Below, one piece after another: positions 3,129-18,628 of a DNA stretch of 41,136 nt. Source of the stretch: a virus; the IMG/VR virus record IMGVR_UViG_3300029258_004545, positions 1 to 41,136 of that record; one strand, given 5' to 3'. The stretch's first letter is position 1, and every line of letters starts with the position of its first letter. The translations under genes and the position numbers were made by a program. The notes beneath the pieces are model-generated. The model had not been told where the DNA came from and ran no database searches. It was given only the letters and a program-made list of their open reading frames with translations.

Positions 3129-5096
3129 TTACGATTCGCCCTTCATCTTCAGGGCACCGCGGTAGTCTTGCTCGCGAACACCGAAGTCGATATAGCCGCG
3201 ATACTGGACGCCCAGCGTGTTGAAGTCGGCGTCGGCTCGCTCAACGGTCGGGCGGTCGACGCCACCGAGGAACGCGACTTCGATCGCCGGCAGACGGTTC
3301 GGATCGGCCAGGAGATGCCACGCCTTGTTGCTCGCACCCGGGAATGTGGTATTGCTGGGATAGGCCGAAGAGACGACTTCAAACTTTCCGGCGTGCGGAT
3401 TGTTGGCCGGCTTTGCCTTGTTTGCCGTAGTGGTTTCGTTCACCTGCAGCGCGGTCATGAGTTGTTCGGCCGGAACCTTCAATGCCGTGGGCACCAACAG
3501 CAATCTCGCGGGCACGCCCAAGGGGCGCCCGTTGGGCTTGGTCTGCTCGGCAAACGCCACCTCGGCCATGGTTAGGCCGTCGATCGTCAGGGCGGTGTCG
3601 GCGCCGGCGAGGTAGTTGTTGTGATCGGCGTGAAAGAACTTCAGGCCGTCACTCTGCACGGGATTGGAGAGAAACAATCCCCAGACGGCGTCGGCGATCG
3701 CCTCGGCTGCCCCCATGCCGATTCGGCGCGGAATCTCGGTCAAGGCGCCCAGATCATCATTGATAATCATCTGCCGAGTCAGGGCGAACATGATCCCGTG
3801 CGTGTCGACCTTTTGCCCGAACTGCTGCTCGCCAACCTTTCCATGCTTCAGTTCGCCGTCGGGGCCGACCTTCTGAAACACGAAATTGTCCGTCATGCGA
3901 TACCGGCTGTGTTCCTTGAAGTCGTTGACCGAAGCGATCTTGCAGATTCGCCGCCAGGCGTCTTCGACGTAGTTGTAACCCTCCAGCAGAGATTTGTTGG
4001 CCACATTCGCCAGAATGTTCGGCAAGCTCGTAGTGCTGAATGCCGCCCTCAACCAGCCGGTCGCATCTCGACGATACCGCGGCAAGCGCTCCCCGCTGGC
4101 CAACTCGCAGAATTCTTGCAGATCGACGCCCCGGAGCTTGTCGGCCGCTTCGAGCGTCTGTTCGGAGTATGACGCCTCAAGTGTGGCGGTCGTAACGCCC
4201 GAAGCCGACAGCGCAACCACCTCGAAGACTTGCGGTCCGAAGGTGTCGGCCGGAACGTGCACGGCCGGTGCCGAGGGACGCGACTCTTGAATCGCAGCAC
4301 GCACTTCCCTGGCGCAGCGATCTTCATCCCATTTCTCTTCGAGAGCTTGAGCCCTAATGTCCGGATGTTCCGAACAGAGTTGGTCAATCACGAGGAACCG
4401 CTTTCGCGCTCTTTCCTCCCCCTCCGCCCTGATGGCCTCGACGTCGACTTGACCCGCACCACTCGCTTCGAGCTTCTCGGGAGTGTCCGTAACGTTCGAC
4501 TTCTTGTCGGCGGAAGCTTCCTTCTTGTCTTCGTTCGCTTTGGGCATGTTCTGTTTCTCCTCTTCGGGTGATTGGGCGGACACGACGGCCCTGGCGTCAC
4601 TGTCCGCACCGTTATCGACAAAACTGATTTCTTTCAGGGTCATCCGGCGAACCACGTGCAACGGTCCTTCGAACGACTGGCCGTTGACCTCGATGTTCCG
4701 GCCGGCCGACACGAACTCGGCCTTGATTACCGGGCCGCCGATACTGGCCCGCCACGGGAACCCGTTGCTTCCGCTGCGGGCCACGTCGCGTGCCCACGAG
4801 GTGTCACGGCTGATGAGGCCTTCCGCGACAAGCTTTCCGCCACGGGCCTCGATTCGCGTCGTGTGGCCGACACCTTGGCTCGGCTTGTGATCCAACCGGA
4901 TCGGGACCGACTGGTCGGGAACGTCCAGGCCGCCCAAGTCGACTACCACCGCGTGAGGAAAACCGGCCAGGCGCATCGCGCCGCCCGAATAGGCAACCAT
5001 CGAAAACCGCGGCAGTTCCTTTTCGCCGGCAGCCGCTTCGATGGTCGGCACGGCGGAGAACTCGACGAATTCAGGCGACTTGACGCTGTTGGGCAT
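3129..5096 (-). CDS. Prohead protease fused to Mu gpT-like major capsid protein
   Basis: A 655-aa two-part protein. Residues about 40-190 look like an HK97-type prohead serine protease. H70 lies in IRLDHKPSQG, the likely Ser is S118 in RASIGG, and the acidic EISFVDNGAD follows at 156-165. A charged linker rich in Lys, Glu and Ala (about 175-235) resembles a scaffold delta-domain. Residues about 285-655 resemble the Mu gpT-like major capsid protein, with segments such as FFHADHNNYLAGADTAL and RPLGVPARLLLVPTALK. In many phages these are two or three genes. Here one polypeptide supplies protease, scaffold and shell and must be cut after assembly. The gene overlaps the portal gene by 26 bases. 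Confidence 0.88.
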   Translation of the reverse strand: MPNSVKSPEFVEFSAVPTIEAAAGEKELPRFSMVAYSGGAMRLAGFPHAVVVDLGGLDVPDQSVPIRLDHKPSQGVGHTTRIEARGGKLVAEGLISRDTSWARDVARSGSNGFPWRASIGGPVIKAEFVSAGRNIEVNGQSFEGPLHVVRRMTLKEISFVDNGADSDARAVVSAQSPEEEKQNMPKANEDKKEASADKKSNVTDTPEKLEASGAGQVDVEAIRAEGEERARKRFLVIDQLCSEHPDIRAQALEEKWDEDRCAREVRAAIQESRPSAPAVHVPADTFGPQVFEVVALSASGVTTATLEASYSEQTLEAADKLRGVDLQEFCELASGERLPRYRRDATGWLRAAFSTTSLPNILANVANKSLLEGYNYVEDAWRRICKIASVNDFKEHSRYRMTDNFVFQKVGPDGELKHGKVGEQQFGQKVDTHGIMFALTRQMIINDDLGALTEIPRRIGMGAAEAIADAVWGLFLSNPVQSDGLKFFHADHNNYLAGADTALTIDGLTMAEVAFAEQTKPNGRPLGVPARLLLVPTALKVPAEQLMTALQVNETTTANKAKPANNPHAGKFEVVSSAYPSNTTFPGASNKAWHLLADPNRLPAIEVAFLGGVDRPTVERADADFNTLGVQYRGYIDFGVREQDYRGALKMKGES

Positions 5097-15077: not shown

Positions 15078-15877
15078 GCCACCCCCACATCCTCGACCTC
15101 GAACAGCGCCGTCGCCGAAAGCCGCTTCCGGCCGTAGACCTTGCCGTGATAGTTGTAGCGGCCCTTCACGACGGCTACCTGTTCAACATGAAAGTAGTCG
15201 CGGTGCGTCCAGACGACCGACCAGCCGTGCTGCCAGTCCGGGGCGGTTACGTAGTCCGGATTAAGATCGCACAGACACCCGTTCTCCCAGGCCGCGTAGG
15301 TATCGGAAATATCGCGATGGTAAAACGCGCCCAGCCGATGCGTGTGGCCGTGGATCACGCAACAGCCGTACTTCTCGAAGTGGCCACGCGCGGAATACCC
15401 CGACCACTTGCGGGCCAATTGGCCGTGCGTGAACAGCAGCGACCCCACGCGATACGGCTTGTCGTGCTGCCGATAACGAATCTTCAGCGCCGCGAAGTCC
15501 AACAGCTTTTCCAGCCGCAACGCCCGCAACAGCGCCAAGGCCTTCGCCTCGGTCCGCAGGTAGTTCCGCAGCCGAAACTCGTGATTGCCTTCCGAGAAGA
15601 TCAGCCGGGAACCCGGCGCCGCCTCACGCACCTGGCGAAGGAAATCCCGCGTGGCGTCGAGGTCCTGTTGCAAGTCCTCTTTCCGCGCCGGGTCCTTGGC
15701 AAACCGGCTGATCGAGTAGAAATCGGCAATGTCGCCCAGCAGGTGGATCGTCCCCGGTCGATGCTCGCGGATGAACGCCAGAAGCATTTTGCAGACGTGC
15801 TTGTCCTGAAACGGAACGTGCGTGTCGGAAAACACCACGCCCATACGACGGTCGACCGTTTTTCTGTTCTTGGCCAT
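15074..15877 (-). CDS. Calcineurin-like metallophosphoesterase
   Basis: A 267-aa protein with the complete two-metal signature: DTH at 18-20, GD at 48-49, GNHE at 97-100, and GHTH near residue 185. It would hydrolyse a phosphoester in DNA, RNA or a nucleotide. The ATG at 15877 overlaps the helicase stop (TGATG). A much longer open frame extends upstream to 16609, but it lies antiphase to the helicase and has no motifs, so it is not used. The location in the replication module suggests a nuclease or phosphatase used in DNA processing. Confidence 0.88.
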   Translation of the reverse strand: MAKNRKTVDRRMGVVFSDTHVPFQDKHVCKMLLAFIREHRPGTIHLLGDIADFYSISRFAKDPARKEDLQQDLDATRDFLRQVREAAPGSRLIFSEGNHEFRLRNYLRTEAKALALLRALRLEKLLDFAALKIRYRQHDKPYRVGSLLFTHGQLARKWSGYSARGHFEKYGCCVIHGHTHRLGAFYHRDISDTYAAWENGCLCDLNPDYVTAPDWQHGWSVVWTHRDYFHVEQVAVVKGRYNYHGKVYGRKRLSATALFEVEDVGVA

Positions 15878-18441
15878 CAGAACGGTATCTCCTCTTCGGC
15901 AAGACCCATCGCAACCGCGATCGGGACCGGCTCCGGCTTCTCGCCCAGTTCGTAATTGATGATCGTGTCGAACCGCTCGCCGGCCACGCTGCGGACGGTA
16001 ATCGCTTTCGTCTGGCAGAGGCCGCCGGCCGAAGCGATATCCACCGCCCGCTCGGCCGTCGGCGGAATCGGATCGTCCGACCGCTCCGACCACCACTTGA
16101 CGAATTTTCGCCGGGCGAAGCCGTCGTGTTCGGGACAGACCCACTCGCACCGATAGTCGTGAAAGCCGACGTCGTAGTCGACGCGCATCGTTTTGGGCGA
16201 GTCTTCGTCGGCGCCGCGTTTCGTGTGGACCGAATAGAAGATGTCGCGGACGGTGTATTCGGTGTCGGTGACCTGGCCGGTGATAATCCCCGCCTCGCTG
16301 GCCTTTGCATCGTGTTTCGGTTCGTCCGAATTGGGAAACTCGTAGCCGCAGTCGGGGCAAACGCTGTATCCACAAGCAATCACCGACCGGCATTCGGGGC
16401 ATTCCTTGGCCGGCCCTTCGCCCGCGCTGCCGCCGCCTCCACTCTTCGGTGTGCGAATCTGGATCGCGTCCACCGGGCCGTGTCGCAAGATGTTCCCGGC
16501 GAAGTCCAAGACGAGGCAGTTTTCCTTGCCCGGGAACAACCGAAAGCCGCGGCCGACCATCTGGTAGTAAAGCCCCGGCGAGTTGGTCGGTCGCAGAAGC
16601 ACCACGCAATCGATATTCGGCGCGTCGAACCCGGTCGTCAGCACGTTGACGTTGACCAGATATTTCAGCGGCGGGCGAGAATCGTTGAACAGATTCGCCG
16701 GGACCTTTTCGCCCTTGAATCTGGCCAACGTCTCGGCACGTTCACCCGGGGGCGTATCGCCGCAGACGAACCCGCACTCAACGCCGTGCTTGTCTTGCAG
16801 CACCGATTGAATATGCCGGGCATGCGCGATACTGGAGGCGAAGATCAGGCAAGAGTTGCGATCGGCCGTCCGCTCGACGATCTCCCGGCAGGCCGCCTCG
16901 ACCAGTTCGTCGGTGTCCATCAACTCTTCGACTTCGCTGCCGATGAACTCGCCGGCCCGAACGTGCAGGCCCGACGTGTCGACCTTCCGCACGCCGGCCT
17001 TCGTCACCAGCGGACAGATATACCCGTCGCGGATCAGTTCCTTCACGCCCACTTCGTAGCAGACCGCGTTCAACAGGTTGTCAGGACCGCAGAGCATTCC
17101 CGATTTCATGCGGTACGGCGTGGCTGTCAGGCCGATCAATCTTGCGCCGGGATTAACGATCTTCGCATCCGCCAGGAACTGCCGATACATCCCGTCGCCT
17201 TCCGCCGGAATAAGGTGGCAGTTGTGAACTAGAACGCCTTCGGCGAAGTAGTTTTCATTTCCTTCAACTTGGAGATTGTAGACTCGATCTTCGCAATGAC
17301 TGCATTCATGTTGCGGAGAATGTCGTTGTTCGAGAACCTCAACGTGGTCCACCCTAACTGGGACAAGATGCGGTTGCGCCTCGCGTCTCGGGCCTGGGCC
17401 TCCAGTGTCTTGTGGCTGCCGCCGTCGATCTCGACGCACAGTTTTAGTCCGGCATGGGCCAGATCGGCCGAGTACCACGTGGCGTTTCCGTCGCGTTTGG
17501 GAAGGCCCGTCTTGATTACCATTTCGGGAGTCCACGCCGGGCCGAGCATCGCGAACAACTGTTTTTGCGGACGCGTCAGGCCCCTTCCCTTCCCGCCTTG
17601 AATTACCGGTTTGTGCCCCCTGTCCTTCATCGTTGCCGACACCTTCCCGCGGACGGATGGATCGCTCATCGGATTTAACCGTTTCATCCGAGTCGAAGAC
17701 AGGGCTCCCCGGAAACGATGTGAGCATGCCTTGCTGCAAAACATTCGCTCTACTCTGGCGAACACTTTGAGCTGGTTGTTCGTTGGCTCGGGAATGTCGG
17801 CTCCGCATTCGTGGCACGTAAACCACTGCATTTTCCACAAGCGTATTCGCGGGGACATATGCGTCTCCGTTATAGAAGGGGTGATTCGGGGTCGACGTTA
17901 GTTGCCTGCCGTCTTCGAGGGTGATTCTTACCATGCGAGCGGGTTTGGGTCGCGATGAGACGGCAAGTACCGGCCGCGTTTCGATTTCTTGTGTTTTGTG
18001 ATTGAACGACCGGACCATATCGCCTGCTTGAATCATCTCGATGGGCCGCCCGTCAACGGTTGTTCCCGCCGGAAAACATTCGTCAATTACGACCAGGTCG
18101 AAGGCGCCCAGATCGCAGGCCCGCTTGTAGACCGACTGGATGCCGCCGACGATCACCGGCTGCTCGGTGTCCCGCCGCTTCAGCCCGGCCGAATAAATCC
18201 CCACCGAAACTTCCGGACAGATCGCCCGCAGCTTGTCGGCCGCCTGTTCCAAGAGTTCCTTGACGTGAGCCAGAACGGCAACCCGACCGCCCCAGCGCGT
18301 AACCGCGTCCCGGCAGATCGTGGCCAGCACGGGCGTCTTGCCGCCGGCGGTCGGAATGACCACGCACGGGTTATCGTCGTGCTCGCGCAGGTAACGATAC
18401 ACCGCCTCGACGGCTTCGCTCTGGTAGGGTCGCAACTTCAC
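15877..18441 (-). CDS. DEAH-type superfamily 2 helicase containing an intein
   Basis: An 854-aa precursor. The host protein starts KLRPYQSEAVEAVYRYL, then PTAGGKT (motif I), and the motif II DECH box is interrupted after VVIDE by a 286-aa intein (17221-18078). After splicing, VVIDE would join CHLIPAEGDG. The rest shows motif III-like GLTATPYR, helicase motifs through GRGFRLFPGKENCLVLDFAG, a zinc ribbon CPECR and CPDCG, and a C-terminal domain ending EEEIPF. The GTG at 18441 is preferred because AAGGGGAAC lies 5-6 bases upstream; an ATG 27 bases earlier overlaps the previous gene. It probably unwinds or remodels recombination intermediates with RusA and the ATPase upstream. Confidence 0.9.
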   Translation of the reverse strand: MKLRPYQSEAVEAVYRYLREHDDNPCVVIPTAGGKTPVLATICRDAVTRWGGRVAVLAHVKELLEQAADKLRAICPEVSVGIYSAGLKRRDTEQPVIVGGIQSVYKRACDLGAFDLVVIDECFPAGTTVDGRPIEMIQAGDMVRSFNHKTQEIETRPVLAVSSRPKPARMVRITLEDGRQLTSTPNHPFYNGDAYVPANTLVENAVVYVPRMRSRHSRANEQPAQSVRQSRANVLQQGMLTSFPGSPVFDSDETVKSDERSIRPREGVGNDEGQGAQTGNSRREGKGPDASAKTVVRDARPGVDSRNGNQDGPSQTRRKRHVVLGRSGPCRTKTVRRDRRRQPQDTGGPGPRREAQPHLVPVRVDHVEVLEQRHSPQHECSHCEDRVYNLQVEGNENYFAEGVLVHNCHLIPAEGDGMYRQFLADAKIVNPGARLIGLTATPYRMKSGMLCGPDNLLNAVCYEVGVKELIRDGYICPLVTKAGVRKVDTSGLHVRAGEFIGSEVEELMDTDELVEAACREIVERTADRNSCLIFASSIAHARHIQSVLQDKHGVECGFVCGDTPPGERAETLARFKGEKVPANLFNDSRPPLKYLVNVNVLTTGFDAPNIDCVVLLRPTNSPGLYYQMVGRGFRLFPGKENCLVLDFAGNILRHGPVDAIQIRTPKSGGGGSAGEGPAKECPECRSVIACGYSVCPDCGYEFPNSDEPKHDAKASEAGIITGQVTDTEYTVRDIFYSVHTKRGADEDSPKTMRVDYDVGFHDYRCEWVCPEHDGFARRKFVKWWSERSDDPIPPTAERAVDIASAGGLCQTKAITVRSVAGERFDTIINYELGEKPEPVPIAVAMGLAEEEIPF
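17221..18078 (-). other. Intein inserted in the helicase DECH motif
   Basis: A 286-aa intein. Its first residue is Cys in CFPAGTTVDG (block A). Block B is TSTPNHPFYNG, with TxxH. Block F is VYNLQVEGNENYFAEG, and block G is VLVHN followed by Cys as the +1 extein residue. All residues needed for protein splicing appear present. Between blocks B and F lie about 170 residues of Arg-, Ser- and Gln-rich sequence with no LAGLIDADG or HNH motif in this frame. That same DNA encodes a complete Vsr/DUF559-like endonuclease in another frame. The site splits the essential Walker B/DECH box, a position where inteins are hard to lose. Confidence 0.9.
17229..17858 (-). CDS. Vsr/DUF559-like homing endonuclease nested in the intein in another frame
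   Basis: A 209-aa protein read in a frame different from the helicase-intein frame. The N-terminus has a zinc-binding pair, TCHECG and FCSKACSHRF (residues 14-49). A middle segment, NPMSDPSVRGKVSATMK, resembles the DNA-binding NUMOD-like modules of homing endonucleases. The C-terminal domain is Vsr/DUF559-like: LKLCVEIDGGSHKT, with the likely metal-binding Glu and Asp in VEIDG and the His in GSH, then RNRILSQLGWTTLRFSNNDI. The ATG at 17858 has GGAG 6 bases upstream. The stop is inside intein block G. It would cut intein-free helicase genes and so spread the intein. Confidence 0.8.
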   Translation of the reverse strand: MSPRIRLWKMQWFTCHECGADIPEPTNNQLKVFARVERMFCSKACSHRFRGALSSTRMKRLNPMSDPSVRGKVSATMKDRGHKPVIQGGKGRGLTRPQKQLFAMLGPAWTPEMVIKTGLPKRDGNATWYSADLAHAGLKLCVEIDGGSHKTLEAQARDARRNRILSQLGWTTLRFSNNDILRNMNAVIAKIESTISKLKEMKTTSPKAF

Positions 18442-18442
18442 G

Positions 18443-18628
18443 TTAGTTCCCCTTGGCGCTCGCTTCATCGAGACACAGGGCCCGCCGGGGATGCGGCCGC
18501 CTGTGTTGCATCTCTTGCCGCAGACGATGGGTCAGTTCGTCGAGCGGATTGCGAACCGGCGCGGTGGCGTGCGACTGTTCGCCGTCATCGATGTCGATGA
18601 CGAACACGCCGGAAATAATCACTCTCAT
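18443..18628 (-). CDS. Small hypothetical protein
   Basis: A 61-aa basic protein starting RVIISGVFVIDIDDGEQ. The N-terminal half could form two beta-strands and the C-terminal half is Arg- and His-rich. No family is recognised. The ATG overlaps the RusA stop by 4 bases and its stop is one base before the helicase GTG, so translation is coupled to both neighbours. That packing is the main evidence that it is real. Confidence 0.6.
   Translation of the reverse strand: MRVIISGVFVIDIDDGEQSHATAPVRNPLDELTHRLRQEMQHRRPHPRRALCLDEASAKGN

Follow-up and report, generated by a model that had tools for sequence, protein, structure and literature searches.

Our data show that the helicase gene in the window (i.e. 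the whole stretch of 41,136 nucleotides analysed here, a 41-kb phage record from IMG/VR) is interrupted by an intein whose DNA, when read in the +1 frame, contains a second gene, for a DUF559/Vsr-like endonuclease. This nested +1 layout represents a conserved class and is the rule for this branch of endonucleases, i.e. it is neither transient nor a one-off. In all probability, the element is a mobile intein that splices in cis and is combined with a separately translated homing endonuclease overprinted in the +1 frame.

The helicase, its intein and the overprinted endonuclease

The helicase is encoded by an uninterrupted open reading frame (ORF) of 863 codons on the minus strand, and the regions flanking the insert match ResIII and Helicase_C in Pfam (table 1). 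Its true start is probably the GTG at 18441, which is preceded by AAGGGG, and not the ATG at 18468; helicase relatives align only from residue 6-10. As had been stated in the preliminary description of this DNA, the intein splits the DECH motif exactly before its cysteine (DE^CH, between ...VVIDE and CHLIP...), and its splicing blocks are intact, with Cys1 in block A, TPNH as block B, VYNLQVE as block F and a terminal HN^C. Across 26 aligned inteins, Cys1 as well as T63 and H66 of block B are invariant, and the His-Asn followed by a cysteine at +1 is the C-terminus of a class 1 intein. In the AlphaFold model, residues 1-92 and 231-286 form a Hint fold (pLDDT ~97 for most part), which matches solved inteins in Foldseek searches, and the splicing residues are retained in nearly all nested loci.

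The element is distinct from three other established categories. The match to Intein_splicing (E 1.2e-11) sets the element apart from ShiLan-type insertions, which have no splicing domain, the single continuous ORF sets it apart from split inteins, and the +1 phase of the endonuclease, in the window as well as in all nested relatives, sets it apart from canonical inteins with an in-frame endonuclease. Judged by sequence and model, the intein looks splicing-competent within a single continuous precursor.

The claim of an out-of-frame, 209-aa Vsr/DUF559-like endonuclease is borne out by a Pfam match to DUF559 (E 1.6e-14) in a separate frame, and both intein and endonuclease have homologues. The endonuclease model (pLDDT 89) comprises an N-terminal Cys4 zinc knuckle and a nuclease domain, for which Foldseek gives 3hrl, I-Bth0305I (3r3p) and Vsr as the closest structures, with modest E-values (best 1.2e-3). 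Conserved catalytic residues and the predicted Vsr-like fold place it among the EDxHD nucleases.

At either end, the endonuclease gene also extends into DNA that encodes genuine splicing domain. Its TAG stop falls inside the codons for VLVHN of the intein, and STISKLK in its last helix is the +1 reading of VYNLQVE in block F. Endonuclease helix 184-200 and intein block F strand 257-273 are encoded by common DNA, and both products are modelled confidently, except for a loop at intein residues 257-261. What lies between the splicing halves is a shadow of the endonuclease frame, as originally proposed, but with a clearly disordered part of about 123 residues (96-218) it is shorter than the ~170 residues first given.

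Table 1. Features of the helicase-intein-endonuclease locus (positions in the window).
Feature	Position	Strand	Basis
SF2 (ResIII/Helicase_C) phage helicase precursor, 863 aa from ATG	15877..18468	-	Pfam
N-extein ending ...FDLVVIDE (Walker B / motif II)	18079..18468	-	
C-extein starting CHLIPAEG...	15877..17220	-	
Class 1 intein, 286 aa, Cys1 ... His-Asn^Cys	17221..18078	-	Pfam Intein_splicing 1.2e-11; predicted Hint fold
N-terminal splicing half, intein residues 1-92 (blocks A, B)	17803..18078	-	AlphaFold pLDDT ~97
Shadow of endonuclease in intein frame, residues 96-218, predicted unstructured	17425..17793	-	pLDDT ~41
C-terminal splicing half, residues 231-286 (blocks F, G)	17221..17388	-	AlphaFold
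209-aa DUF559/Vsr-like (EDxHD) homing endonuclease gene, +1 frame	17229..17858	-	Pfam DUF559 E 1.6e-14
GGAG Shine-Dalgarno-like motif, 6 nt upstream of endonuclease ATG	17865..17868	-	
Catalytic segment E143-x-D145-G-G-S-H149...D158	17385..17432	-	Invariant in 30 relatives
Dual-coded 5' overlap: endonuclease residues 1-19 / intein residues 74-92	17803..17858	-	
Dual-coded 3' overlap: endonuclease C-terminal helix STISKLK / intein block F strand VYNLQVE	17229..17309	-	

Nested, empty and fractured loci

A protein search with the endonuclease over 50,697 phage records produced matches in 41 of them, and the annotated features beneath these matches are helicases or unnamed proteins. Seven loci from Corynebacterium, Pseudomonas and Vibrio phages were opened; in each of them the endonuclease is in the +1 frame and never annotated separately, i.e. 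the annotation gives the helicase only and misses the nuclease. A profile search covered the best 80 loci from IMG/VR and the best 80 from GTDB genomes, drawn from a larger total, with every locus sorted by frame and the branch delimited by a profile E of about 1e-22 or better. Among the matches listed, this branch contains 116 entries (including the window and some duplicates), all of them in phase +1, with one continuous host ORF in 113 and a fractured one in three; no endonuclease in phase +2 or in frame with the intein was found among these 116 close entries. The 113 continuous entries reduce to 94 at 90% protein identity, and 47 weaker profile matches are free-standing DUF559 proteins. 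A search for close relatives with an in-frame endonuclease gave none, the only in-frame cases being DUF559 inteins of Mu-F-like genes, whose nucleases form a distant branch of this family. Two of these, in Mu-F-like head genes (L265:1483-3675 and L270:1951-4845), have the canonical layout.

Carriers in GTDB, among the matches listed, include Chloroflexi, Elusimicrobia, Riflebacteria, Verrucomicrobia, Myxococcales, Acidobacteria, Planctomycetes, Actinobacteria, Clostridia and others, with Ktedonobacter racemifer as the one cultured strain; many of these loci may be prophages or phage contigs. Insertion is mostly at motif II of SF2 helicases (DE^C), and other hosts are a SNF2-like helicase-methylase, a terminase-like protein and a clamp-loader-like ATPase. 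On a plasmid of Rhodovastum atsumiense, a very long SNF2-related ORF contains an unannotated DUF559 match that is in +1 by its coordinates (L290:1-5339). Another locus features a helicase ORF that apparently has two inteins, one of the nested DUF559 type and one with an in-frame LAGLIDADG endonuclease (L044:2252-6145).

Intein-free helicases with 62-72% amino acid identity (78 found, 67 parsed) have a contiguous DE-xH without a gap at the insertion site, comparable to the DE-CH join expected in the preliminary description, with x being Ala in 51, Cys in nine, Ser in six and Val in one of the 67. A cysteine at +1 is needed for splicing. The intein-free relatives (L175-L252) mostly have DEAH, with Ala at +1, as opposed to DECH in the intein-bearing allele; the intein may either invade DECH alleles only or bring the cysteine along by co-conversion. 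A near-identical intein-free helicase, which would be proof of recent homing, was not found, the closest empty sites being those at 62-72% identity.

The three fractured entries (L070, L088 and L100, with the later copies L254, L255/L256 and L263) have fractured helicase genes and split inteins, with the endonuclease again in phase +1. In all of these loci the two intein halves reside on separate ORFs, of which the one for the N-intein ends just past the endonuclease start, while that for the C-intein restarts within the endonuclease; these ORFs overlap the endonuclease at both ends, and the broken frame between the intein halves has accumulated 24-30 stops. The fractured IMG/VR loci have 33-40% GC. 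Thus, the nested layout is linked to split inteins. The continuous precursor with its out-of-frame endonuclease had been regarded as a step between intein types, and this connection holds, since the fractured loci show the same phase; the layout is no transient, however, as 113 of the 116 entries are nested and their frame is strongly selected.

The fractured layout could also be the older one, with the continuous precursor having arisen by fusion, and a constrained IQ-TREE tree with fractured forms outside the nested clade is not rejected (AU test, p 0.82). Yet FastTree sets the fractured forms inside the nested ones, with L070, L088 and L100 as one branch (0.99) adjoining the nested L021 and L047 (0.97), nested forms are far commoner and more widespread, and a fusion would have required the loss of all stops in the broken frame, which altogether makes this order of events rather unlikely. 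The direction from nested to fractured is likely, because a gene can dispense with read-through more easily than it can rid itself of some 25 stops. We give an even chance to the more comprehensive proposal that inteins with a nested out-of-frame gene form a class of their own, which is old, widespread and as yet undescribed in phage helicases, has a fixed +1 register locked by the overlaps at both ends, and was the intermediate that gave rise to fractured genes and some naturally split inteins.

Endonuclease expression and selection on both frames

An important question is how the endonuclease is made, and here the sequences point to internal initiation as the likeliest route. The Shine-Dalgarno site already ascribed to the gene is indeed present, as a motif of 4 nt only, and several relatives have none at all; matches of at least 5 nt precede 23% of the first ATGs versus 3.7% of internal ATGs. 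Programmed frameshifting, by which the endonuclease would be fused to the N-terminal part of helicase and intein, might exploit the overlap of the frames near the endonuclease start and would account for loci that have no clear Shine-Dalgarno-like site. However, the enrichment of such sites at a fairly steady position before the start, as well as the stop of the N-intein just after the endonuclease ATG in fractured loci, which is reminiscent of coupled genes, render frameshifting improbable.

Selection on both frames, also raised in the preliminary description, is clearly apparent. Across the endonuclease, the intein frame of the window contains no stop versus 5.7 expected, with none of 400 synonymous shuffles being stop-free, and in the 94 non-redundant nested loci there are again no stops versus 772 expected from synonymous shuffling. 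By comparison, the third frame of these loci has 1347 stops (1235 expected), and the equivalent frame of 46 free-standing relatives has 452 (483 expected), i.e. no avoidance. Together, the missing stops and the free-standing controls therefore indicate that read-through of the precursor is under strong selection. The absence of stops is not an artefact of selecting loci, because defining 'nested' by an open frame excluded three entries only.

Counted by first, second and third codon position in the endonuclease frame, substitutions in the endonuclease core number 977, 814 and 1731 (21 pairs); this bias argues that the endonuclease frame is selected too, by purifying selection, and that the middle of the intein frame is its shadow. 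At the dual-coded 3' end, there are 0.134 versus 0.268 substitutions per site, and the bias between codon positions is nearly gone (27/31/36). A halved rate and a lost position bias are what dual coding at the block F overlap is expected to produce. Distances between endonucleases correlate with those between inteins (r 0.50, 0 of 500 permutations), as well as with those between exteins (r 0.51-0.58), so that joint travel of intein and endonuclease is not separable from vertical descent.

These data also bear on the possibility of a decayed mini-intein, whose frame would be an open shadow owed to base composition and whose precursor would remain unspliced. Such decay would fit with a middle part that is unstructured in the model and with the tendency of alternative frames to stay open in GC-rich genomes, but stops are equally absent from loci of 28-45% GC, in most of which about 8-15 are expected, there are hardly any loci that have lost splicing residues, and the splicing halves are conserved and modelled with a pLDDT of ~97. 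We thus consider decay highly improbable; base composition as the cause of the open frame is ruled out by the synonymous shuffles and the free-standing controls. In several loci with a GC content of at least 62%, as many as 1-4% of the shuffled sequences have a shadow free of stops, and an origin of the nested layout in a GC-rich phage therefore seems plausible.

The existence of in-frame DUF559 endonucleases in Mu-F-like head genes notwithstanding, it is next to inconceivable that the two frames were created by faulty sequencing or assembly, or that an ordinary intein containing its endonuclease in frame has recently undergone a frameshift, since two IMG/VR contigs from other metagenomes contain the helicase at 100% and 99.96% DNA identity, so that three assemblies agree, the nested relatives listed are uniform in phase and none of them is in frame, and a single frameshift could not restore both block F and the last endonuclease helix on their common DNA. 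The independent assemblies and the uniform +1 phase exclude a decayed in-frame intein as well as the error in the reads that had been considered at the outset.

Proposed mechanism and relation to known systems

From sequence and structural models, we infer that the element operates by splicing, internal initiation, cleavage and homing. Ribosomes starting at the helicase would read through the intein frame, with the central ~125-150 residues forming a disordered loop, and the two Hint halves would fold and splice to generate a helicase with an intact DECH motif. Initiation at the internal ATG behind the Shine-Dalgarno-like site would yield a separate nuclease with a zinc knuckle and an EDxHD domain, which would cleave motif II of helicase alleles that have no intein, and repair of the cut allele would copy the whole element. 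Selection would keep the intein frame open, because loss of the frame would truncate the helicase. In an AT-rich branch, the frame would have been lost and the intein halves would have become separate genes, i.e. a fractured gene with a split intein.

Fractured genes, in which the two parts of a split intein flank a free-standing Vsr-like endonuclease, were reportedly described by Dassa et al. in 2009. Our element resembles them in its kind of endonuclease, its intein and its phage DNA-metabolism host, but its intein is a continuous precursor enclosing the endonuclease, and L070, L088 and L100 are the fractured counterparts. Because nested and fractured loci that agree in phase and nuclease exist side by side, the element offers a concrete and testable route to split inteins, the origin of which is debated. 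I-Bth0305I and other Vsr-like EDxHD nucleases are similar in fold (3r3p, 1vsr) and in their conserved residues of the E-D-H-D type; I-Bth0305I is a mobile intron protein according to the PDB, whereas the nuclease in the window starts with a zinc knuckle domain at its N-terminus and is overprinted on intein DNA.

With canonical bifunctional inteins, the element shares the Hint fold, the insertion into an active-site motif and the position of the endonuclease between N- and C-terminal splicing halves. In those, however, the endonuclease is part of the precursor protein, and according to a 2014 review, the endonucleases of inteins are fused to the intein (PMC3943268), whereas here it is read in the +1 frame, outside the precursor protein. 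A precursor and a hidden gene on one DNA would thus be a third way to join splicing and homing, besides a fusion or a broken gene. ShiLan, i.e. out-of-frame HNH genes in insertions of actinophage methylases without a splicing domain (Arsenault, Gosselin & Gogarten 2025, PMC11855218), is alike in having an out-of-frame endonuclease in an insertion that is open in the host frame, in having long been overlooked and in its disjunct distribution. It involves an HNH nuclease for which no ribosome-binding site was found (PMC11855218), while our case features a complete intein around an EDxHD/DUF559 nuclease.

In the literature covered by our search, we found no account of a DUF559 nuclease encoded out of frame within an intein that splices. 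A 2025 preprint on non-canonical actinophage inteins, which is cited for overlapping actinophage frames in PMC11855218, may describe out-of-frame endonucleases in inteins; the class presented here is mostly found outside actinophages. The nested loci are also a large example of natural overprinting, for which free-standing and in-frame relatives serve as internal controls. Elsewhere in the window, a 655-aa ORF (3129-5096) matches 'major head and protease' families along most of its length, which suggests a protease-capsid fusion.
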